DNA of 64,000 nucleotides, taken from the NCBI GenBank assembly GCA_947460175.1, contig CANHGW010000001.1, positions 62,001 to 126,000 on the forward strand. The letters are read 5' to 3'. The position numbers and the translations under genes were made by a program. The stretch is from Bacteroidota bacterium (lineage in GTDB: Bacteria > Bacteroidota > Bacteroidia > Chitinophagales > Chitinophagaceae). Below are positions 6,664 through 19,300 of this stretch, piece after piece (positions within the stretch are counted from its first letter, which is position 1; each line of letters opens with the position of its first letter). The notes below the pieces were generated by a model that worked only from the letters and a program-made list of their open reading frames with translations, had not been told where the DNA came from and did no database searches.

Positions 6664-6942
6664 TTAATAATTATGTGCAGATTTATTGTGTAGAAATGTT
6701 ATTAATATGATTTGATGATTATTGATTAAATAGATTAATGATGTATGTGGATTTAATACACATTTTCTATAGGGGGTCAGTTTCGAAACAGGACAAAACG
6801 TTTGAAATTGAATTAAATTTTTTAGTAAAGTCTCAACTTGTATTTCTAATTCAATAATTTCTTTTGCACTCCAACGTTCAAAAAGATAATCTATAATTTT
6901 TAAATATGAATTTAGAGATTCTTCTGTCCAAATTATTTCCAA
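6664..6942 (-). CDS. RelE/ParE-family toxin
   Basis: A 92-residue protein with the layout of type II RelE/ParE toxins: an N-terminal strand ([20 protein letters not shown]), two helices, then a four-stranded sheet ending [18 protein letters not shown]. The basic region [19 protein letters not shown] matches the catalytic sheet of the family. The target (ribosome-bound mRNA or gyrase) cannot be told. It lies 4 bp after its antitoxin and 4 bp before pyrF, so the order is antitoxin-toxin-pyrF on one strand. The frame is intact. Confidence 0.8.
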
Positions 6943-6946
6943 AACA

Positions 6947-7180
6947 CTAGATTAATTTTTGTTTGATATGATTTTGAATAATTTCTCTTGCTTGGTCATG
7001 TGTATAAATGTTTCCCTTTTCAAAATCTAATTCCCCATTACGAATGGCGGTCAATTCATGTTGACTAAATTCATTTATACTTTTATTCAATGAATCTAAG
7101 TAAGAAATAATTTCATTTGCAAAATCATCTGAAAGATTTTTCAATTTATTGTTAATTGTATTTATTGAAATGGGATTCAT
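6947..7180 (-). CDS. Antitoxin of RelE/ParE module
   Basis: A small (77-residue) acidic-to-neutral helical protein directly before the toxin. The N-terminal half (INTINNKLKNLSDDFANEII) is the usual helix pair of addiction-module antitoxins. The C-terminal tail (GNIYTHDQAREIIQNHIK) would be the toxin-wrapping segment. Identification rests on size, position and the presence of a recognisable toxin. The specific antitoxin family is uncertain. Confidence 0.7.
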   Translation of the reverse strand: MNPISINTINNKLKNLSDDFANEIISYLDSLNKSINEFSQHELTAIRNGELDFEKGNIYTHDQAREIIQNHIKQKLI

Positions 7181-7218: not shown

Positions 7219-7506
7219 TTAATATTTCTTTGCAGGTTTTCTTTTATGATGAAAAATAGAGGTAATTAAAATTAAAAAAAAATCTTCAACAACGTATATA
7301 ATACTAAAGGGAATTGTTTTCAGTATAATTTCTCTATGCTGCTTATGTTTTTTAGGAAATTGTAATGGATTTAATTTAATAACATCTAACTTCTTCGTAA
7401 ATTCTTTTACAAAATCATTTGCAGCTTTTACACTTCTACTTATTTAACAAAATACAATTTCTTCAAGTTCTTGAAGTGCTCTCTCAGCGTATTCTACAGA
7501 AAACAT
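7219..7506 (-). pseudogene. RelE/ParE toxin remnant with in-frame stop
   Basis: Reading leftwards from an ATG at 7506 gives MFSVEYAERALQELEEIVFC, then a TAA at 7444-7446, then 74 further codons in the same frame to a TAA at 7219. The second part contains KAANDFVKEFTKKLDVIKLN and ends in a strand-rich basic tail (HHKRKPAKKY), matching a plasmid-stabilisation RelE/ParE toxin of 95 residues. One substitution therefore truncates an otherwise normal toxin. It follows the damaged antitoxin by one base. Recoding of the stop is possible but less likely, since the antitoxin is also broken. Confidence 0.82.
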
Positions 7507-7507
7507 T

Positions 7508-7751
7508 TTAAGCAATTTTTCCTTTTTTCAGAATATGATTAATTCGTTTATTGGCATCTTTTTCTGATACACTTATTCCAGTTTTTTTTGTAATCGTAGT
7601 AACGCGAATCTAATTCATTCTTAAATGATTTGTTCCATTGAACATCTTCTGTAATTGAATCTTCCAACATAGTATAAATAGCCTTTACCTTTTTCAAATC
7701 AGCTGTATCAATATATGAATGAAGTTTTTCTCTTATCGCAGATACTGTCAT
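7508..7751 (-). pseudogene. Antitoxin remnant with homopolymer frameshift
   Basis: The frame from the ATG at 7751 starts well (MTVSAIREKLHSYIDTADLK) and contains VQWNKSFKNELDSRYYDYK, a usual antitoxin pattern. It then runs into a run of eight T (plus strand 7582-7589) and yields a nonsense tail ending at 7548. Removing one base from this run restores KTGISVSEKDANKRINHILK and a stop at 7508, exactly one base before the toxin ATG. Intact length would be 80 residues. This is either a real frameshift or a sequencing or phase-variation length change in the T run. Confidence 0.82.
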
Positions 7752-7789
7752 ATAGAATTTATTTTATTATTCAAAGTGACAAATTTTAA

Positions 7790-8887
7790 TTACACATTCA
7801 GTTCCACCACCTTCGTAGGATCTAAATTGGCATTACGAATAGAAATATTACGAGCTATCTGTTGTGCTACATCATCAATGGCATTCTGAGAGATTGCATC
7901 TCCATTGAGGTAGGCAGGCTTGCCTTCATCACCTCCTTCTCGGATACTCATAGTGATAGGTATTTGCCCCAGAAAAGGTATTTCAAATAAATCGGCTAAT
8001 CGCTTTCCACCATCTTTGCCGAAGATGTAATATTTATTATCGGGTAATTCCAATGGAGTGAAGTAGGCCATATTTTCTACGATTCCTAATATAGGTACTT
8101 TGATTTGCGGACCATCAAACATCATAATGGCTTTCTTGGCATCGGCCAATGCTACCTCTTGAGGTGTAGTTACGATGACAGCACCTGTAACAGGGATCGT
8201 TTGCACCATGGTCAAATGAATATCTCCTGTACCTGGTGGCAAATCAATAATCAAATAATCCAAATCACCCCATAGCACATCCGTAACGAATTGCTTCAAG
8301 GCACTACTTGCCATTGGACCACGCCATACCACTGCTTGTCTATCATCGATGAGCAATCCAATACTCATGGCTTTGATACCCATTACATCGATAGGGACTA
8401 TCATGCCTTTGCCATCTACATCCTGCATCAAGGGGCGCTCGCCTTTAATCCCGAGCATGATAGGCACCGAAGGTCCGTAAATATCGGCATCCATCAAGCC
8501 TACCTTCGCACCGCCTTTTGCTAGGGCCAATGCTAGATTAACCGAAACAGTTGATTTACCAACGCCACCTTTTCCAGATCCTACTGCAATGATATTTTTA
8601 ACATTGGGCAATACCATTTTATTGTCCTTACGGTTGCTATTTACATTGGCTGTAAAGTTGACTGTAGGAATAGCATTTTTATCGACCAAAATTTTAATAG
8701 CATTTTCGCAGGCGCCACGAATCATATCTTTCAATGGGCAAGCAGGTGTCGTTAACACAACCGTAAACGAAACGTTCATCCCATCGATTACGATGTCTTT
8801 TACCATATTCAAGGTCACCAAATCTTTTCCTAAATCGGGCTCTTGCACTTGACCCAATGCTGCCAATACCTTCTCGTGTGTAATCAT
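7790..8887 (-). CDS. mrp: Mrp/ApbC-type iron-sulfur carrier ATPase
   Basis: P-loop NTPase of the Mrp/Nbp35 family that carries Fe-S clusters to apo-proteins. The N-terminal MIP18 (DUF59) domain spans about 1-85 and contains TTPACPLKDM. The deviant Walker A GSGKGGVGKST is at 103-113, with DADIYGPSVP and IIDLPPGTGD following. The C-terminal CxxC found in many Mrp proteins is replaced by ENMAYFTPLELPDNKYYIFG, a form I recall from other Bacteroidota. Length (365) is normal. It is transcribed divergently from the carboxypeptidase-regulatory-like gene. Confidence 0.93.
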   Translation of the reverse strand: MITHEKVLAALGQVQEPDLGKDLVTLNMVKDIVIDGMNVSFTVVLTTPACPLKDMIRGACENAIKILVDKNAIPTVNFTANVNSNRKDNKMVLPNVKNIIAVGSGKGGVGKSTVSVNLALALAKGGAKVGLMDADIYGPSVPIMLGIKGERPLMQDVDGKGMIVPIDVMGIKAMSIGLLIDDRQAVVWRGPMASSALKQFVTDVLWGDLDYLIIDLPPGTGDIHLTMVQTIPVTGAVIVTTPQEVALADAKKAIMMFDGPQIKVPILGIVENMAYFTPLELPDNKYYIFGKDGGKRLADLFEIPFLGQIPITMSIREGGDEGKPAYLNGDAISQNAIDDVAQQIARNISIRNANLDPTKVVELNV

Positions 8888-8951
8888 TCTAAACTATTGT
8901 TAAATCAACGGCACAAATGTACATACAAATAATTTTATAGACGTTTTACTT

Positions 8952-8959
8952 TACCTTTG
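8952..8959 (+). promoter_or_regulatory. -7 element TACCTTTG of a leaderless promoter
   Basis: Perfect match to TAnnTTTG, ending 4 bp before the GTG start of the downstream gene. Transcription would begin at or next to the start codon. Confidence 0.6.
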
Positions 8960-8963
8960 AAAA

Positions 8964-9596
8964 GTGAGAAAACTATTATTATTTCTTATACTCCATGTAG
9001 GCTGTATTCAAATTTCACAAGCTCAATACGGCTTTGATAATATGGTGGAACTAACGGGTGTAGTAATGAGTGGTGACAGCCTTCGTTATTTACCTTTTGT
9101 AACTGTGTCTATTCCTAGCAAAGACCTTGGTACCATGTCGAGTGAGAAAGGCGTTTTTAGTCTTATTGCTGAAAAAGGCGATACGCTTGAATTTTCTTAT
9201 TTAGGCTATCGCAAAAAACGCTATATCATTCCCAAGGAGTTAAGTTCTAACCGCTATTCGGTAATACAACTCATGGTACAGGATACATTCTACCTTCCTG
9301 TCACAATTATACGACCACAACTTACGAAGGAACAATTTCAACAAGCTTTTGAGACATGGCATGTACCTGACGATAAGTATGAATCGGCTCGTAAAAACAC
9401 AGAGTTTCAAACTATGCGTATGCTTGCGTTTACATTGCCAAAAGATGGCAGGGAAAACCAACATGCTTATCAAAATATGTTAGCTCAACGCAATTATTGG
9501 GCAGGGCAACAACCTCCTATGACCATCTTTAGTCCCTTGGCTTGGATGGACTTTTTTAAGGCTTGGAAACGGGGCGATTTTAGAAGGAAGAAATAG
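8964..9596 (+). CDS. Carboxypeptidase-regulatory-like secreted protein
   Basis: Begins with GTG just after a -7 box, so the mRNA is predicted to be leaderless. Residues 1-20 are a signal peptide. A CarboxypepD_reg-like/CNA-B beta domain follows (about 27-105): VELTGVVMSGDSLRYLPFVT and DTLEFSYLGYRKKRYIIP are typical, as in the N-termini of TonB-dependent receptors. The rest is helical and ends in a basic tail (AWKRGDFRRKK). A second copy of the last 25 codons lies 2.5 kb downstream. Function unknown; it probably resides in the periplasm or outer membrane. Confidence 0.78.
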   Translation: MRKLLLFLILHVGCIQISQAQYGFDNMVELTGVVMSGDSLRYLPFVTVSIPSKDLGTMSSEKGVFSLIAEKGDTLEFSYLGYRKKRYIIPKELSSNRYSVIQLMVQDTFYLPVTIIRPQLTKEQFQQAFETWHVPDDKYESARKNTEFQTMRMLAFTLPKDGRENQHAYQNMLAQRNYWAGQQPPMTIFSPLAWMDFFKAWKRGDFRRKK

Positions 9597-9640
9597 AGTG
9601 GAAATAAACTACTCCTCGACTAATATTTGTATTTTATTTA

Positions 9641-11860
9641 TTAATTGAAAAGACTCACTCTTTTTACAAATACTTTATTGTCGACACTAATTTTAACTAG
9701 ATAAATTGCATCTGTCAAATTTTCAAAAGTTATTGGCAATATAGAAGCTCCTGATTTTAATTGGATCTTTTTTATCGACATTTGTTTGCCAAATAAATCA
9801 AAAACAGCTACAGTGACAACTTGTTCAGTTGGTAGAACAATTTCAACTTTAGAAATCCCTTTCGATGGGTTTGGATAAATATCGCCTAAAGTAATATCAA
9901 TCACTTCTAAATCATTTATTGAATTTGGTTGCCCACAGAATAATCCAGAAGGTGTATCACCAAATATAAACCAACTTCTTGTATTCGAAAGGCTATCTCT
10001 TGCACTTTGTGCATTCGTACCGTATGACATTCCTGTTCCATTAAAGTTAATGGATGAAGGGCATTGAGGATTTGCATTCCATCCAATTAATGTGTTGGAA
10101 TAATTTTCACAATCGATAGCGCTATTAGTTATAATGTTTTGCATATTGACATTCGATTTCAATTGCCAGTTTCCCAGTGATTGATTAAATGAAGTAGCTC
10201 CGGAAAACATTTCAGACATGTCATTTACTTGTGCTGTGTTCCAAGTATTTAATGCTTTATTAAAAGAAGTTGCGTTATAAAACATCAAACTCATATTATT
10301 AATTCCTGCTGTATTCCATGCATTTAAATCTTGATTAAATGAAGTTGCAGAATTGAACATGTAACTTGTATTTTTGACATTTGATACATTCCAATTATTA
10401 ACAGGTTGATTAAATTGAGAAGCTTGAAAAAAAGCAACACTCATGTCAGTTACATTACCCGTACTCCAATTAGCAATTGATTGATTAAAGTTTGTAGCAC
10501 CAGCAAAAATCCACGACATTGAAGTTACATTAGTTGTATTCCAATTACCAATAGGTTGATTAAAAACAGAAGCGTCTTTAAATAAAGAATTAAAAGAGGT
10601 AACATTTACAGTATTCCAACTGCCAATAGGTTGATTAAATGATGATGCTCCATTAAACATGGAATTCATATTGGTTACATTGGAAGTAATCCAACTTCCT
10701 ATATTTTGATTAAACGAATTTGCCATTTGAAACATTGAATTCATATTGGTTACATTGGATGTATTCCAACTCATAATATTTTGATTGAAATTGTTAGCAT
10801 AGTTAAACATAGATTCCATACTCGTTACATTTGCCGTATTCCAATTATTCAAATTTTGATTAAAAGACTGCGCATTTTGAAACATTGAATTCATTGTTGT
10901 TACATTCGATGTATTCCAATTTCCGATTGGTTGATTGAATAATTTTGCATTTTTAAACATAGCGTTCGTGCTTTGAAGGCTCCCGGTATTCCAATTACCA
11001 ATTGGCTGATTGAACAATGTATCATTTTCAAACATTGAATTCATTGTTAACACACTTGCTGTATTCCATGCACCAATAGGTTGATTAAATGCATACGCAT
11101 TCAAAAACATGAAACTCATATCACCCACATTGGATGTATTCCAATTATTGAGGTTTTGGTTAAATGACGTTGCATTTAAAAACATTGAATTCATATCTGC
11201 TACATTCGAAGTATTCCAAGTACCAATGGGTTGATTGAAATTTGTTGCACCGTGAAACATCCAATTCATTGTAATCACATTGGATGTATTCCAATTTGAA
11301 ATATCCTGATTAAAGTTAAATGCTTCATAAAACAATGCCCCCATTGTTAAAACATTCGATGTATTCCATTGATTCATATTGGCTGGTCCATTTAAACTTT
11401 TACATCCCCCAAACATAAACGACATATCATTTAATGCTGTTAGGTTAGGTACATCAGTAGCAGAAATATTCAAATTTGAGCACCCGTTAAATGCATATTG
11501 CATACTTGACCATATTACATTACCCCATTGTTCAATATCAAGAAGTCTTTTTTTGTCAAGTCCATTATCAATAAATATTCGATTAAAATTAGTAGGGCCG
11601 ATACTCAAGCGAATAGTTGCTCCCACTGGCAAGCCAGATAAATTAAAGGTAGAGCCTGAAAAAGTACCCGAACCACTTTGACCAGCAGGAATAGTCTCCC
11701 ATGTATAGTTTGTCACACCTGATGTTTCTACGTTAAAGGTTAATTGAGTTGGCCCTGAACCCAATGTATCTAAATTCCATTTTGTAATGAATGGCTGTGC
11801 AGAAACATGGAATGACAATAAAATGCAAAATGAAAATAAAAGTTTAATAAAGTTATTCAT
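9641..11860 (-). CDS. BspA/DUF285 repeat surface protein with T9SS domain (copy 1)
   Basis: Signal peptide (1-21, ending HVSAQ), a beta domain (about 22-100, [20 protein letters not shown]), then about 17 units of a 25-residue DUF285 (BspA-type leucine-rich-like) repeat. Its core is WNTSNVTxMNSMFxxAxxFN, with FNQxIG starting the next turn. A T9SS sorting domain closes the protein ([15 protein letters not shown] to VKRVSLFN). Repeats of this class form amphipathic solenoids and are used by surface adhesins. Their DNA is known as PARCEL elements, shared between mycoplasmas, Bacteroidota and protists. It is the first of three tandem paralogues on this strand. Confidence 0.9.
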
Positions 11861-11888
11861 AGTTAAGGATTAAAGTAAAATACGTTAA

Positions 11889-11896
11889 CAAAGTTA
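11889..11896 (-). promoter_or_regulatory. -7 element of DUF285 copy 1 (TAACTTTG)
   Basis: Perfect TAnnTTTG on the minus strand, 29 bp before the ATG and followed by TTAACG. The same box and following WTAAC occur at the same distance before copies 2 and 3. Confidence 0.6.
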
Positions 11897-11970
11897 ATCC
11901 TTTTTTTCACTAAATAAACAATCTTTTCAACGAAGACAATTATAGAAGATATACAACAACGTTATACTTA

Positions 11971-11978
11971 TAGTTTTG
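11971..11978 (+). promoter_or_regulatory. -7 element TAGTTTTG before the orphan 25-codon tail
   Basis: Exact TAnnTTTG followed by CTTT and then ATG, the same geometry as the leaderless promoter of the parent gene at 8952. The bases before it (ACGTT..TACTT) resemble those before the parent promoter. Confidence 0.5.
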
Positions 11979-11982
11979 CTTT

Positions 11983-12060
11983 ATGACCATCTTTAGCCCC
12001 TTGGCTTGGATGGACTTTTTTAAGGCTTGGAAGCGTGGTGATTTTAGGAGAAAAAAATAG
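11983..12060 (+). pseudogene. Orphan 3' copy of the carboxypeptidase-regulatory-like gene (possible micro-gene)
   Basis: A 79-bp segment (11982-12060) aligns without gaps to 9518-9596, the end of the gene at 8964. It encodes exactly the same last 25 residues (begins MTIFSPLAWMDFF, ends GDFRRKK) and the stop. The seven differences are all synonymous third-position changes. The ATG corresponds to an internal Met of the parent and here follows a TAnnTTTG box by four bases. It could be the relic of a paralogue with a large internal deletion, or an expressed 25-residue micro-protein. It converges on DUF285 copy 2, whose stop is 4 bp away. Confidence 0.7.
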
Positions 12061-12064
12061 GTCT

Positions 12065-13753
12065 TTATCGAATCAAATTAAACCTCAGTACTATTCGTTC
12101 TTGATCCAAATCAAGTTGAACAAAATTTAGCCCTAGGGCTAAATTGGAAGTTGGTATGTAAAATTTGTTTACCCCTTGATATACTTGGAATTGAGTTTCT
12201 TGAACAATTTTTCCATATACATCCATTATTTTTATCCTGGTATTTTGATCCAAGTTGCTTTTTATAGTTAACTGAGGGTTTCCAAAACTTGGATTTGGTG
12301 AAATACATGCCTCAGCTTGCTTGTCGTCTTCAATATTTGATAGCCCATTCGGATTACAAACATATCCTGTAGGATAGTCACCAATAAAGTTCCAACCTTT
12401 AATATTATCTAAATTTGTTCTGGAAGTCAAGGCATCTAAGCCATACAGTAAGCCATTTGCTCCAAGTGTTAAAACGTTTGGTGTCAGAACATTGGAATTC
12501 CATCCATTTAATGTTGCCGTGTAATTTGCACAGTTGAGCCCTGAATAACTTAACATACCGTACATACCTGTTACATTCTGAATATCCCAAGTACCAATGG
12601 GTTGGTTAAAGTTACTGGCTCCATAAAACATATTATCCATAGTACTAACATTTTGTGTATTCCAGTTACCCATGGGTTGGTTAAAATTGATGGCAAATTC
12701 AAACATCCAATTCATACCTACTACATTCTGTATATTCCAATTTTCTATGGGTTGGTTAAAGTTACTGGCATTGGCAAACATTCCATTCATACTGTTTACG
12801 TTCTGTGTATTCCAATTTCCTATGGATTGATTAAACATAATGGCATTACGAAACATACTAGTCATATTGATTACATTATGAGTATTCCAGTTCCCTATCG
12901 GTTGATTAAAGTTATTGGTATTGGCAAACATATTATACATATCAACTACATTTTGGGTGTTCCAATTCCCAATTGGTTGGTTAAAGTTGGCTTCATAAAA
13001 CATCCAACTCATATGCGTTACATTCTGTGTATTCCAATTTCCTATAGGTTGATTAAATGAAGTAGCAGAACGAAACATACTACTCATTTTAGTAACAAAG
13101 GAAACATCCCAATTCCCAATTGGTTGATTAAAAGATGTCGCTAATCCGAACATGAAGGTCATATCCGTTACACTTTGAGTATTCCATAAACCGATAGGAC
13201 CATTAAAACTTGAAGCTTCTCCAAATAACATCGACATATCTGTAATAGTAGATGTATTCCATGTCCCTATATTCGTTGGCCCTATCAAACTACTACATGC
13301 TCTAAACATTGCAGACATACTTGTAACAGATGTCAAATCGGGCACATCTGTTGCATTGCAATTTAAGTTTTGACAACCATAAAATGCATCTTCCATGCTT
13401 GACCATTTTACACCTCCCCACTGTTCAACATCTATTAATCTGTTTTTATCATTTCCATTATTAATATTTATTCGATTAAAATTAGTTGTATCAATAGACA
13501 ATCGTATGGTAGAACCAACTGGCAAGCCAGTTATTGTAGCTGTTGTACCAGTAAATGTTCCTGAACCATTCGTTCCTGCTGGTATAGTCTCCCAAGTATA
13601 ATCCACTACGCCTGTAGTACCAACACCAAAGCTTAATTGAGTGGCACCCGAACCTGGTATCGACAAATCCCACTTTGTAACAAACGGCTGCGCTACTGCA
13701 TTAAAAGAAATTAGAAAAAATAATGTAAGGAAAAGTTTAGTAAAGTTGTTCAT
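12065..13753 (-). CDS. BspA/DUF285 repeat surface protein with T9SS domain (copy 2)
   Basis: The start is placed at the ATG at 13753 (MNNFTKLFLTLFFLISFNAV), because the -7 box lies inside any longer frame and copies 1 and 3 begin the same way. After the signal peptide come the shared beta domain, about ten 25-residue DUF285 units ([13 protein letters not shown] is the commonest turn), a cysteine-containing cap (LNCANYTATLNGWN) and a C-terminal T9SS domain (ACISPNPSFGNPQLTIK). One unit is a residue short (FYEANFNQP). It is shorter than copies 1 and 3, as expected for unit gain and loss. Likely a cell-surface or secreted adhesin. Confidence 0.9.
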   Translation of the reverse strand: MNNFTKLFLTLFFLISFNAVAQPFVTKWDLSIPGSGATQLSFGVGTTGVVDYTWETIPAGTNGSGTFTGTTATITGLPVGSTIRLSIDTTNFNRININNGNDKNRLIDVEQWGGVKWSSMEDAFYGCQNLNCNATDVPDLTSVTSMSAMFRACSSLIGPTNIGTWNTSTITDMSMLFGEASSFNGPIGLWNTQSVTDMTFMFGLATSFNQPIGNWDVSFVTKMSSMFRSATSFNQPIGNWNTQNVTHMSWMFYEANFNQPIGNWNTQNVVDMYNMFANTNNFNQPIGNWNTHNVINMTSMFRNAIMFNQSIGNWNTQNVNSMNGMFANASNFNQPIENWNIQNVVGMNWMFEFAINFNQPMGNWNTQNVSTMDNMFYGASNFNQPIGTWDIQNVTGMYGMLSYSGLNCANYTATLNGWNSNVLTPNVLTLGANGLLYGLDALTSRTNLDNIKGWNFIGDYPTGYVCNPNGLSNIEDDKQAEACISPNPSFGNPQLTIKSNLDQNTRIKIMDVYGKIVQETQFQVYQGVNKFYIPTSNLALGLNFVQLDLDQERIVLRFNLIR

Positions 13754-13782
13754 AGCTTCTAAAGTGAGGTAAAACCTGTTAT

Positions 13783-13790
13783 CGAATTTA
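13783..13790 (-). promoter_or_regulatory. -7 element of DUF285 copy 2 (TAAATTCG)
   Basis: Minus-strand TAAATTCG followed by ATAAC, 29 bp before the ATG at 13753. It is identical to the box before copy 3. Confidence 0.5.
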
Positions 13791-13815
13791 GTGCTTTTTA
13801 GCAATAAAAAAAAGG

Positions 13816-13842
13816 ATCAAGCATGCTTTAACAAGCAGTGGA
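13816..13842. repeat. Upstream repeat shared by DUF285 copies 2 and 3 (first copy)
   Basis: Twenty-seven bases with two mismatches to 16149-16175. It begins 62 bp upstream of the start of copy 2 and contains a GCATGC palindrome. It shows that the duplicated unit included the promoter region. Confidence 0.7.
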
Positions 13843-13864
13843 AATTAAATTGTACAAAAAAACT

Positions 13865-16087
13865 TTACTCTACGATTACCTTAGCTACAAACCTTCCGCA
13901 TTTAACATAATAAACACCTTTCACAAGTGCACTTACATCAATTTCATTTTCATAGGTAGTGAGTATGAGTTGACCAAGGGTGTTGTACAATTCCTTTTTA
14001 GTATTTTGCAGAGTAGAAAACTTGGATGAAATATTGACTTTATCCTTAGCAGGATTTGGATAGATTATAATTTTATCATTATTTGAATATTCATCCAAAC
14101 CAATGCCCATTACAGTATAACATGCTGAGGTATCGGTGCAGCCATTCATCGTGACGGCCACAGCATACGAACCATTGGCAGAAGCCGTGAAATTCTGGTT
14201 TGTTTCGCCGGTGATGGCTTGGTAGGGATTGCAACGCAACCATTGGTAGCTGGCTCCAGCGGCATTGGCGCTCAGTAAGACCCCTGATTGTGAAACGGTC
14301 GTATCGACGGTGTTAATTGTGAGCACCATGGTCAGCATGCTGTCGCAACCGCTTTGACTCACCAGGGTATCGTAATAAATTCCACCGCTGCTCAGTACCT
14401 GTCCGTTGAAAAAGTAGGAACCGCAGGCGGTCACTTCGCTGACTCCCTGTTGCGGCGTGCAGCAAATACCGGTATCAAGAGAATCTCCGTTAATCATCCA
14501 GCCTTTTGTATTGATGAGAACATTTCTAGAACCTTGGGCATTGAGCAGGTATTTCAAATTCAGCGCGCCCAAATTTCGATTATACGGCACATTGGCATTT
14601 GCAGCCCAACCGTTCAATGTGGCAGAATAATTCAAGCAATCCATACCGCAATTATTCAGAAGGCCAATAAGTATCACATTTCCGGGCAACACCCAGTTAC
14701 CCAACGATTGATTAAAGGATGTAGCGCCCGAAAACATATATCGTATGTCGAAGGCGCTGTTGATATTCCAGTTGGCCAAGGGCTGATTAAATGAAGTAGC
14801 ATTTTGAAACATATAGCTCAGGTAAACTACATTCTGGGTATTCCAGTTTCCGATAGGCTGATTGAAAGTAACAGCGCCATGAAACATTGTCTGCATGGTT
14901 GTAACACTCTGCGTATTCCAGGATGCAATTGGTTGATTAAAGGACACAGCCCCACTGAACATATAACTCAAATTGGTAACATTTTGTGTATTCCAAGTGC
15001 CAATGGGTTGATTAAAGGAGATGGCACCGGCAAACATATATCCCATGTGGGTTACACTCTGTGTATTCCAGGAATTGAGTGGCTGATTAAAGGCTTGTGC
15101 AACATTGAAAACCCCATTCATATTAGTGACGCTGGCCGTATTCCAAGTCCCAACAGGCTGATTAAAACTTGATGCAAAAGCAAACAAATAGCTCATGTTG
15201 GTTACATTCTGCGTATTCCAGGCTCCAATGGGTTGATTAAAGGAAATGGCATGTTTAAACATCTTGGTCAAATCAAGCGCGTTCTGCATATTCCAGATAC
15301 CCAGGGGTTGATTAAAGGACGTCGCATATTCAAACATGGAGCGAAAATTGGTAACCGATGATACATTCCAGTTTCCGATGGGTTGATTAAACGAGGAGTC
15401 TATATAGAACATGCTTTCCATACTGGTTGCACTGCTCACGTTCCAAGTTCCGATAGGCTGATTAAATGCGTGGGCGCTACAAAACATAGAATCGAAAATC
15501 TGCACGTTCGATACATTCCAGGCGGACAGGTTCTGATTAAAAATCTTGTCACCCATAAACAGCATTTTCATCGTGGTGATGTTCGACACATTCCAGCTAT
15601 TGATATTGGCAGGGCCATTCAGCGCGTAACAAAATTTAAACATTGCATTCATGCTTGTAACACCCGACAAATCAGGTACATCTGTTGCAGAAATCGTTAA
15701 ATTATGACAATGTTCAAAAGCCCTGTGCATGGTAGTCCAGTGCACGCCACCCCATTGTACTACATCCACCAATCGGGCGGTATCCAATCCGTTGAAAACG
15801 TTGAATCCATGAAAATGCGTGGTGTCAATGGAAAGACGGATCATAGCCCCCATCGGTAATCCGCTGATTGTGGCCACTGAGCCGTTAAAGGTGCCAGAAC
15901 CATTTTGTCCAGCAGGTATCGTTTCCCAGGTATAACTCACCGATCCCGTGGTACCCACACCAAAGGTCAGTTGGGTTGGGCCGGAGCCCTGAGTTGAAAG
16001 ATTCCATTTGGTGATGAAGGGCTGTGCAACTGCATTAAAAGAAATTAGAAAACAAAATGTCAGTAATAGTTTGGTAAATTTGTTCAT
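13865..16087 (-). CDS. BspA/DUF285 repeat surface protein with Ig-like and T9SS domains (copy 3)
   Basis: The start is placed at the ATG at 16087 (MNKFTKLLLTFCFLISFNAV). The order is signal peptide, shared beta domain ([17 protein letters not shown]), about 13 DUF285 units, a cysteine cap (GMDCLNYSATLNGW), then an extra region absent from copies 1 and 2. That region has a CCTPQQGVSEVTACGSYFFN module and an Ig-like SYQWLRCNPYQAITGETN module, and is followed by the T9SS domain (IIYPNPAKDKVNISSK). Its base composition is visibly richer in G+C than copies 1 and 2, especially in the repeats and extra modules. This suggests separate acquisition or recombination with a foreign allele. Confidence 0.9.
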   Translation of the reverse strand: MNKFTKLLLTFCFLISFNAVAQPFITKWNLSTQGSGPTQLTFGVGTTGSVSYTWETIPAGQNGSGTFNGSVATISGLPMGAMIRLSIDTTHFHGFNVFNGLDTARLVDVVQWGGVHWTTMHRAFEHCHNLTISATDVPDLSGVTSMNAMFKFCYALNGPANINSWNVSNITTMKMLFMGDKIFNQNLSAWNVSNVQIFDSMFCSAHAFNQPIGTWNVSSATSMESMFYIDSSFNQPIGNWNVSSVTNFRSMFEYATSFNQPLGIWNMQNALDLTKMFKHAISFNQPIGAWNTQNVTNMSYLFAFASSFNQPVGTWNTASVTNMNGVFNVAQAFNQPLNSWNTQSVTHMGYMFAGAISFNQPIGTWNTQNVTNLSYMFSGAVSFNQPIASWNTQSVTTMQTMFHGAVTFNQPIGNWNTQNVVYLSYMFQNATSFNQPLANWNINSAFDIRYMFSGATSFNQSLGNWVLPGNVILIGLLNNCGMDCLNYSATLNGWAANANVPYNRNLGALNLKYLLNAQGSRNVLINTKGWMINGDSLDTGICCTPQQGVSEVTACGSYFFNGQVLSSGGIYYDTLVSQSGCDSMLTMVLTINTVDTTVSQSGVLLSANAAGASYQWLRCNPYQAITGETNQNFTASANGSYAVAVTMNGCTDTSACYTVMGIGLDEYSNNDKIIIYPNPAKDKVNISSKFSTLQNTKKELYNTLGQLILTTYENEIDVSALVKGVYYVKCGRFVAKVIVE

Positions 16088-16115
16088 AGCATGTTGGTTA
16101 AGCAAAAATCGTTAA

Positions 16116-16123
16116 CGAATTTA
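16116..16123 (-). promoter_or_regulatory. -7 element of DUF285 copy 3 (TAAATTCG)
   Basis: Minus-strand TAAATTCG followed by TTAACG, 28 bp before the ATG at 16087. This is the same arrangement as in copies 1 and 2. Confidence 0.5.
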
Positions 16124-16148
16124 AGGTTTATTCTTTAATAATAAAACA

Positions 16149-16175
16149 ATCAAGTATGCTTTAACAAGCAGAGGA
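16149..16175. repeat. Upstream repeat shared by DUF285 copies 2 and 3 (second copy)
   Basis: Partner of 13816-13842 with two mismatches, at nearly the same distance (61 bp) from its gene. Confidence 0.7.
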
Positions 16176-16279
16176 CTTTATACACGAATAGATTTAATGA
16201 TTAAAGACCACTTTTAATTCTTACAAGAATTGATTTTCTTGAGATCGAAAATTCTGTATAATTTCTATTTTTTTTCTAT

Positions 16280-16305
16280 AAAAAAAACGCCCGATTACTC
16301 GAGCG
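16280..16305 (-). terminator. Rho-independent terminator of secA
   Basis: On the minus strand, CGCTCGA, loop GTAA, then TCGGGCG (7 bp with one G-U pair), followed by eight T. It begins 16 bp after the secA stop. Confidence 0.85.
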
Positions 16306-16321
16306 CTTTTCAATTTTTATT

Positions 16322-19300
16322 TTACTTTCCGTGACATTGTTTATACTTCTTACCACTTCCACAAGGACATAAATCATTGCGGCCTATTTTGGGTTCAAGT
16401 CGCTTGATAGGTTCTGGCTTCGCTACCGGTGTAGATGGATCGTAATAATCATTTTCGTTGGCACCATAGTCTTCACCTGCTGCATCTATTTCTTCTTTGT
16501 TGGCGCGCATATTACTCATATCAGTTTTCTCGATACGTGCTTCGTGTATATCTTCTTCTTGTTGCATCGGGATACCACATCGCATCAGGAATGCGACAAT
16601 ATGTTTGTTGGTTTCGCCAATCATATCTTTAAACAAGTTGAAGGCTTCAAACTTGTAAATCAACAATGGATCTTTTTGTTCGTAACTCGCCAATTGCACA
16701 CTTTGTTTCATTTCATCCATTTGACGCAAATGGTTTTTCCACGATTCATCAATGAGTGCCAATGTAATTTGTCGTTCTACAGCGCTAATCAACTCTTTAC
16801 CGCCCGATTCTACAGTTTGTTTCAATGGCGTTACGATTTGTATACCACGTATCCCATCGGTAAATGGAACAGCAATATTTTGCACACGTTCGCCATTTTG
16901 AGTCAATACATTTTGCAATACAGGCGCTGTTTGTTCTTTAATGTATTCGCATTTGCTTTGGTATGTTTTGGTCAATTGTTGATACAATCGTTCGGCCAAT
17001 GCAGCTGCATCTATTTTTAAAAATTCTTGCTCGCCAATCTCAGGTTCGAAGGCGAAGTCGCGAAGTACTTCTATCTTAAATTGTTCGTAGTCACGGTTGG
17101 TATCAAACTGTGTAGCAACTAAGTTACAACTATCAAAGAAGGCATTGTCCAGGTCAAGCGCCAATCGCTCACCAAACAAGGCATTTCTACGACGTGTATA
17201 AATCACCTCACGTTGAGAGTTCATAACATCATCATATTCAAGCAATCGCTTACGTATACCAAAGTTATTTTCCTCCACTTTCTTTTGGGCTCGCTCGATA
17301 GATTTTGATATCATACTATGTTGTATCACATCGCCATCCTTATGTCCGAGTTTGTCCATCCATCCGCTCAATTTATCACTTCCAAATAGACGCATTAAAT
17401 CATCTTCAAGAGAAACAAAAAATTGAGAACTACCCGGATCACCTTGTCGACCAGCACGACCACGTAACTGACGATCCACACGTCTACTTTCATGTCGCTC
17501 GGTACCAATGATAGCTAATCCACCAGCAGTTTTTACATCAGGTGCCAATTTGATATCGGTACCACGACCAGCCATATTGGTTGCAATGGTTACAGCGCCA
17601 GTCAAACCAGCTTCAGCAACAATCTGTGCTTCTTTAGCATGTTGTTTTGCATTCAATACATTGTGTGGCACTTTGTCAAAAGCAAGCATTTTGCTAAGCA
17701 ATTCAGATACCTCTACCGAAGTAGTACCTACTAGCACAGCTCGTCCTGCTTCACGTAGTTTTTTTACTTCTTCTATGACCGCACGGAATTTTTCACGCTT
17801 GGTTTTATATACCAAATCTTGATCATCCTTACGGATTACATTAACATTGGTCGGGATATTGGTTACTTCTAATTTATAAATTTGCCAAAACTCACCTGCT
17901 TCGGTTTCGGCAGTACCTGTCATACCAGCCAATTTATGATACATACGGAAATAATTCTGTAAGGTCACTGTAGCAAAGGTTTGCGTAGCTGCTTCTACAT
18001 CCACATTCTCTTTGGCCTCAATCGCCTGATGCAATCCATCACTGTATCGACGACCATCGAGTATACGACCTGTTTGTTCATCTACGATTTTTACTTTGCC
18101 ATCCATCACCACATATTCTTTGTCTTTGTCAAACAAGGTATAGGCTTTCAGCAATTGTTGTATAGTATGAATGCGATCTGCTTTTACAGAATATTCTTGT
18201 ATGAGCGCATCCTTTAATTTTCTTTTTTCTTCAGCAGGGTGTTCACTTTGATCGATACCAGCCAATCCTGTACTGATGTCAGGCATCACAAAGAAATTAG
18301 CATCTTCGGCACTGCTTGTCAATAGTTGAATTCCTTTTGCTGTTAAATCAACTTGATTTTGTTTTTCATCAATGGTGAAATATAATTCTGCATCGACTTT
18401 CGGCATGTTTTTTTGCTGATCGGCCAAGTAGTAGTTTTCAGTTTTTTGCAATACTTGTTTGATACCGACCTCACTCAAAAATTTAATGGTAGATGAATTT
18501 TTTGGCAAGCCACGATGTGCTCTCAATAAGGCCAATCCACCACCTTCTTTATCATCATTGCCATCGGCAATTAATTTTTTAGCTTCTATCAAAAAGGCAT
18601 TTACCACTTTACGTTGTACTTCGACCAATTTCTCAATACCCGGTTTCAAGTAATGAAATTCCTGATCGTCGCCTTTCGGAACTGGACCAGAAATAATCAA
18701 TGGCGTACGCGCATCATCAATCAATACACTATCCACCTCATCGACCATGGCATAATGCAATTTGCGTTGTACCATTTCATCGGGCGTATGCACCATATTA
18801 TCACGGAGATAATCGAAACCAAATTCATTGTTGGTACCATAAGTTATATCAGCCAAGTAAGCTTGACGGCGAGCTTCTGAATTGGGTTGATGTTTATCGA
18901 TACAATCTACCGTAAGGCCCAACCATTCAAACAATGGACCATTCCATTCACTATCACGTCGGGCAAGGTAATCATTCACAGTAACGATATGTACACCTTC
19001 GCCAGCTAAGCCATTCAAGTATGCAGGCAATGTAGAAACAAGTGTTTTACCCTCACCAGTAGCCATCTCTGAAATTTTACCTTCGTGAAGGTTATAGCCC
19101 CCTATCAATTGTACATTGTAATGCACCATATTCCAAGTGACAGGCGAACCTGCTGCCAACCAAGTAGATTTAAAGGTAGTTTCATTGCCTTCAATCGTAA
19201 TATGCTGTTTGGTTACAGCCAAGGTTCTATCTAGCTCGGTAGTCGTACTTTTTAGTTCGTCATTTTCTTTTAGTCGTCGAGAGGCTTCTTTTACAGTTGC

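Follow-up and report, generated by a model that had tools for sequence, protein, structure and literature searches.

A gene 3' end repeated with only silent differences beside DUF285 genes, most likely a recent orphan and a trace of gene exchange

How the last 25 codons of a gene can come to stand a second time on their own, behind a promoter-like box and without a single amino acid change, is the question raised by a locus in the window that we analyzed, a stretch of 64,000 nucleotides from a genome of the Chitinophagaceae. The initial annotation had offered two answers, a paralogue with a recent internal deletion or a selected 25-residue micro-protein. We found that the second copy, here called the orphan, is most likely an ordinary gene end that was recently orphaned, and a trace of gene exchange beside an array of DUF285 genes. 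It looks like a leftover of a DNA insertion or deletion, and not like a conserved mini-gene. In a literature search, we failed to find any paper on the present locus, although one may still exist.

The 3' end of one gene is repeated between two DUF285 genes

The parent gene (8964-9596, plus strand) is an open reading frame of 210 aa with a CarbopepD_reg_2 domain (Pfam PF13715, E 1.1e-9). By eye, its N-terminus resembles a signal peptide, and its conserved C-terminal tail ends in WKRGDFRRKK; structure prediction from 3 sequences gave a model of low confidence (mean pLDDT 45). The end of the gene, i.e., a T followed by the last 25 codons and the stop (9518-9596, plus strand), is repeated at 11982-12060 over 79 nt, of which 72 are identical, with no indel. 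The orphan proper, MTIFSPLAWMDFFKAWKRGDFRRKK, is the 25-codon tail with its stop codon (11983-12060, plus strand), exactly where the initial annotation had placed a recurrence of the parent tail. As expected of a displaced tail, only the 3' end of the parent was copied, nearby and on the same strand. The likeness starts one base before the ATG and stops at the stop codon, being sharp on both sides, and we found no 11-mer common to the sequences upstream of the two tails. Within 7800-17500, leaving aside the DUF285 genes with the flanks upstream of them, no other direct repeat of at least 30 nt was detected. We also took 47 window ORFs of at least 70 aa, with overlapping ones thinned, and searched their last 25 codons against the window (E ≤ 1e-3). 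The parent tail alone had a copy, and the present genome contains one full parent copy and the orphan. Separately, 20 of the 21 bases at the junction (11968-11988) recur antisense within a pseudouridine synthase frame (PF00849; G000:C23:12735-12755); considered as the source of the promoter segment, this match on contig C23 has an E of 0.02 and was taken as chance.

A repeat of this kind could be an assembly artefact, as the genome is a draft, probably metagenome-derived, in 108 contigs, three of the relatives are MAGs, and the one identical stretch of 35 nt that the two tails have in common could confuse a short-word assembler. However, the repeat unit is far from the ends of its 231-kb contig, both tails are complete, and the lack of a common 11-mer upstream of them also speaks against an artefact, which we consider very unlikely.

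Three DUF285 genes, all on the minus strand and with secretion tails, lie downstream of the parent. Gene A (9641-11860, 739 aa, Por_Secre_tail) separates the two tails. Gene B (12065-13753), with its likely start, MNNF, at 13753 in an ORF that reaches 13804, has a stop codon that starts 5 bases beyond the orphan stop. Gene C (13865-16087) has its likely start, MNKF, at 16087 in an ORF that reaches 16105. The likely 5' flank of gene A (11861-11937, minus strand) was placed by aligning it by eye with the upstream sequences of genes B and C; its outer edge is not established because the identities (63-70%) do not exceed those of a shuffled control (A vs. C: mean 63, maximum 76). It is followed by the segment that precedes the orphan and bears the leaderless promoter-like box (11938-11982, plus strand; left edge uncertain). 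We found no terminator-like site near the orphan, and the RNA structure scores at the orphan (z of 0.74 for the plus strand and of -1.01 for the minus strand) make no case for structure.

The order tail, gene A, tail, gene B has the outline that a tandem duplication of a "tail plus DUF285 gene" unit within the lineage would leave. Yet the sequences beyond the two stop codons are unlike, and the identity of genes A and B is only 58% in the N-terminal part (about 400 residues) and 40% in the C-terminal part, whereas the tails are 91% identical as DNA, making such a duplication extremely improbable.

Genes B and C have in common an 84-nt upstream block (13764-13847 and 16097-16180, 71% identity), one copy of which contains, by eye, the palindrome AAGCATGCTT. 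Elsewhere in the window, 6664-7180 contains a ParE-like toxin ORF (PF05016, E 6.9e-5, just over its cut-off) next to a 77-aa ORF without a clear family, and the two may form a toxin-antitoxin pair.

The two tails appear to have diverged under coding constraint

Seven differences separate the tails, and all of them are in third positions and silent, as the initial annotation had reported. Its estimate that about a quarter of random changes would be silent corresponds to the top of the range that we calculated, since a single random change in the tail is silent with a probability of 38/225 = 0.17, or of 0.26 at an eight-fold transition bias. At these values, the chance of seven silent changes out of seven is P = 4e-6 to 7e-5. 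The Nei-Gojobori method gave 7 synonymous changes at 12.5 sites (dS 1.03) and none at 62.5 replacement sites (dN 0), supporting the earlier view that both tails diverged while under coding constraint.

Had the orphan drifted freely for one tenth of its branch, about 3.2 replacements would be expected, and the probability of finding none is 0.04; this probability falls to 0.0016 for one fifth of the branch and to 1e-7 for half of it, at 16 expected replacements. Because even one tenth leaves a chance of only 0.04, the orphan was coding until recently, or still is, and until a short time ago it very probably belonged to a functional gene of full length. The synonymous share of the differences between the parent tail and the tails of nine relatives was 0.67, in comparisons that are saturated, and this share predicts seven silent changes out of seven at a P of 0.06.

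Timing from a dS of about 1 is rough because there are so few synonymous sites, 12.5 in all, and the split would seem to be older than the strain level. The synonymous counts were 7/12.5 between the orphan and the parent, 7.5/12.8 between the orphan and the relative G011, and 8/13.5 between the parent and the relative G003. Both tails of the present genome carry an Asp (MDFF) at a position that is Glu in all 10 genus relatives compared, which is expected if the two tails are each other's closest kin. Which of them is the native tail cannot be named, because both are about equally far from the relatives.

The orphan begins at a putative leaderless start

The box TAGTTTTG (11971-11978, plus strand) stands 4 nt before the orphan ATG and is followed by CTTT and then by the ATG at 11983. 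The parent starts with TACCTTTG-N4-GTG, the arrangement to which the initial annotation had likened that of the orphan. The flavobacterial -7 box, TANNTTTG, spans -12 to -5 (PMC6847099, PMC9723704), so the 4-nt spacer puts +1 on the A of the ATG, and the putative TAGTTTTG-N4-ATG start fits the leaderless spacing. The orphan shares this 4-nt spacer with the leaderless Bacteroidota starts behind TANNTTTG that the same reports describe. A G at -10 is rare in the boxes of Flavobacterium johnsoniae, being virtually absent at that position (PMC6847099); TAGTTTTG has a G there, and the identical box is found in 3 genus relatives. The window contains six TANNTTTG-N4-ATG sites, four of which start ORFs of 77 aa or more; the other two are a 1-codon frame inside gene A and the orphan. 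Given that the box occupies 20 of 11,506 intergenic strand-positions, the exact spacing would occur by chance in about 0.2% of cases.

Upstream of the box, the picture is mixed. The sequences ACGTTATACTT and ACGTTTTACTT are identical at 10 of 11 positions, and ACGTTxTACTT stands before both boxes, the orphan's and the parent's. The orphan upstream sequence resembled the parent promoter more than did any of 11 leaderless-start controls, and a start-anchored shuffle test that took in the box gave a P of 0.01. However, 408 of 10,722 intergenic 18-mers (3.8%) equaled the orphan's score against the parent promoter, a free local alignment of the two upstream regions gave a P of 0.53, and against the promoters of relatives, 3 of 11 controls equaled the orphan. 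The initial annotation had found the bases before the box to resemble the parent promoter; this held in the anchored comparisons and was lost in the wider ones, and the likeness beyond the box appears weak and uncertain.

These features bear on a deletion, by which a full second parent copy with its own leaderless promoter, inherited as an old paralogue or acquired, would have lain between genes A and B and lost its body from the start codon to Met186, perhaps across two TATG matches, leaving promoter and tail. This would account at once for the box, its distance of 4 nt, and an ATG that is in frame, and it explains the start better than an insertion does. A TANNTTTG-N4-GTG arrangement precedes the parent not only here but in 8 genus relatives (in G004 the letters are the same, but the GTG is one base out of frame; the 5' end of the G011 parent was left out of the promoter comparison), and the ACGTTxTACTT sequence points the same way, although the weakness of the likeness in the wider tests counts against it. 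In addition, the genus relatives examined start with GTG, and the deletion therefore requires the assumption that the start codon offered a TATG match.

The same start could instead belong to a selected leaderless micro-gene, the 25-residue peptide being made and kept, e.g., for binding a partner of the parent tail. Consistent with this, the in-frame ATG lies at the edge of the homology behind a leaderless box, no amino acid has changed, most TANNTTTG-N4-ATG sites of the window (four of six, as above) start sizable ORFs, and WKRGD is invariant in an alignment of 25 parent-family sequences. The peptide has a charge of +5 and an amphipathic center, and it is the most conserved part of an apparently exported parent protein. 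Yet it shows no signal peptide by eye, whereas the parent seems to have one, and the G at -10 also argues against a micro-gene, even if three relatives share the box.

A free-standing tail was not found in relatives

We found the parent to be matched in 98 of 99 genomes, including the present one, at E ≤ 0.001, in some through the shared domain only. The 25-residue tail was matched in 378 of 394 family genomes, again including the present one, at E ≤ 0.5; these 394 were sampled from a larger group. Of the family genomes other than the present one, 35 had at least two tail matches, and G370 alone had a second one below E 0.01; both of its tail copies run into contig edges. Besides the orphan, the sole short frame among the matches listed is a tail frame of 32 aa at a contig end of G324. 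The parent is nearly always single-copy across the family.

No free-standing tail was detected in the 13 other genus genomes by a search with the parent protein and a search with the orphan DNA, the latter alone being insensitive because it missed full genes such as that of G003. Among the family matches listed, there was likewise no clear free-standing copy besides the orphan. A clear free-standing copy being seen here only, this distribution speaks against a conserved micro-gene, as the free-standing ORF that would mark a conserved small protein was found neither in the other genus genomes nor among the family matches listed. The micro-protein proposed initially thus gains no comparative support, and with no signal peptide to add to it, we regard a selected micro-gene as unlikely. 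It is also rather improbable that the fusion of box and tail created a new expressed leaderless micro-gene that selection has kept since.

The deletion fares somewhat differently. We failed to find a full second parent copy in the present genome or in 14 genus genomes, and this lack, together with the nearly constant single copy of the parent, counts against it; the paralogue of the initial annotation is a tentative possibility of which we saw no sign in the relatives. We detected no relative of the parent in viral contigs, and the sampled genomes included no second genome of the same species and no donor or intermediate haplotype. In one relative (locus L065, G011:C19, 7525-8137), the parent is split into two frames by a sequencing error or as a decayed gene.

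The DNA downstream of the parent differs from that of relatives

An apbC-like gene adjoins the parent in 10 of 10 genus neighborhoods. In none of these neighborhoods was a DUF285 match (E ≤ 1e-6) found near the parent, that of G009 covering just 1.2 kb downstream. The DNA between the tails is absent at the same place in the sampled relatives, as would be the case for DNA that has displaced a tail. A gene-A-like match (E ≤ 1e-40, at most 11 candidates scored per genome) was present in 11 of 99 genomes, including the present one; in the other 10, the match and the parent are far apart or on different contigs, or, as in G001 and G006, a clear parent is lacking. By eye, the gene after the parent in G002, G005, G004, and G012 is a small one. 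It has no good match in the present genome (best E 0.275, with the G005 protein), which indicates that the region downstream of the parent has changed and that the DNA there was exchanged in the present lineage.

A second orphan 3' end was found at a DUF285 locus of G002 (L080, G002:C253, 9849-9932, minus strand). It contains a 47-nt stretch with 81% identity to the 3' end of the DUF285 gene at 7252-9816, upstream of which this stretch lies. Its frame has 27 open codons but no known start and is close to a contig end. Three of 14 residues are replaced, so this remnant is older or less constrained. Since it belongs to the DUF285 gene itself, it reflects gene turnover, an event different from that of the orphan. 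Among the 10 DUF285 loci of relatives that were searched, G002 alone had a gene-tail repeat, and the other repeats were tandem repeats or, by eye, a terminator-like hairpin in G009. DUF285 loci seem to leave tails elsewhere too.

An insertion may have stranded the tail of a diverged allele

At a probability of about 0.5, we favor the explanation that the orphan is the 3' end of a diverged second parent allele and was recently stranded by the joining-in of DUF285 DNA. Two working alleles would have diverged, and silent-only differences would have gathered, before the recombination event. Donor DNA from a sister lineage, which we infer to have carried either the parent 3' end with gene A or the parent 3' end with genes B and C, would have recombined by homology on one side at the parent locus, and the other side would have been joined illegitimately, perhaps at a TATG match. 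One functional tail would have stayed on the parent, and the second would have been stranded between genes A and B. The copied tail, its silent-only divergence, the sharp homology edges, and the presence of DUF285 genes where sampled relatives have none are observed; the donor, the direction of the exchange, its mechanism, and a lack of function of the orphan are what we infer. The TAGTTTTG-CTTT-ATG fusion is probably a by-product, even if RNA and peptide may be made from it.

An insertion accounts for the data by a single event of a known kind and does not require an old paralogue. Counted against it, the spacing of box and ATG would be a coincidence if the donor DNA lacked a genuine leaderless start at this point, no donor or intermediate haplotype was found in the sampled genomes, and seven of seven silent changes are predicted at only P 0.06 by the synonymous share. 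By synonymous counts, moreover, the orphan is hardly closer to the parent than to G011. No result decides between the insertion and the deletion, which we regard as the less probable of the two.

The closest known system is icdC, the displaced icd 3' end next to prophage e14 in Escherichia coli K-12, which has 165 bp with 12 changes, 2 of them replacements (PMC11148124). There, too, a tail is duplicated across an insertion with an intact frame and mostly silent differences, and both tails of the present locus are intact in frame and differ silently (7 of 7, no indel). Unlike the e14 prophage, however, the DNA between the present tails shows no integrase or mobile element, DUF285 gene A being the sole gene seen there, and it is thus not a site-specific element of the e14 kind. 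The orphan also differs from icdC in beginning at an ATG behind a promoter-like box. A second parallel is provided by the shifted 3' ends at type VI secretion (T6SS) effector loci, as in Vibrio, and at Rhs loci, for which homology-facilitated illegitimate recombination has been proposed (PMC5361080). As suggested here, new DNA lies in the 3' part of a gene and the old 3' end has moved downstream (PMC5361080). In contrast to those loci, the parent has no known role as an effector, its C-terminal end is strongly conserved and not variable, the cargo is a DUF285 protein, and no series of intermediates was found.

If tails are stranded in this manner, a gene fragment with silent-only changes can arise without a present function, as alleles diverge and recombination then strands one tail. 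Such fragments would be traces of a recent exchange of genes at a locus, in this case next to genes for DUF285 surface proteins, and can pass for micro-genes when one genome alone is examined. If the fusion of promoter and ATG is expressed, the orphan would be a very young candidate small protein, and if this is true, a stray promoter and the tail of a gene would have given rise to a micro-gene in a single step.

Relation of the parent to BamP

The parent was also considered as a BamP. It scored 29.1 bits against a cut-off of 230 bits for NCBIfam NF053692 and is not a member, and in a whole-genome search with this model, three other places outscored it. A 245-aa frame at G000:C70:3964-4455 scored 47.6 bits against BamP. 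Detectable BamP homologues are reported to be restricted to the Flavobacteriaceae (PMC12611786). A BamP match at E ≤ 0.001 was found in 21 of 25 aligned parent-family sequences, and the parent profile matched a solved BamP chain at an E of 0.0071.
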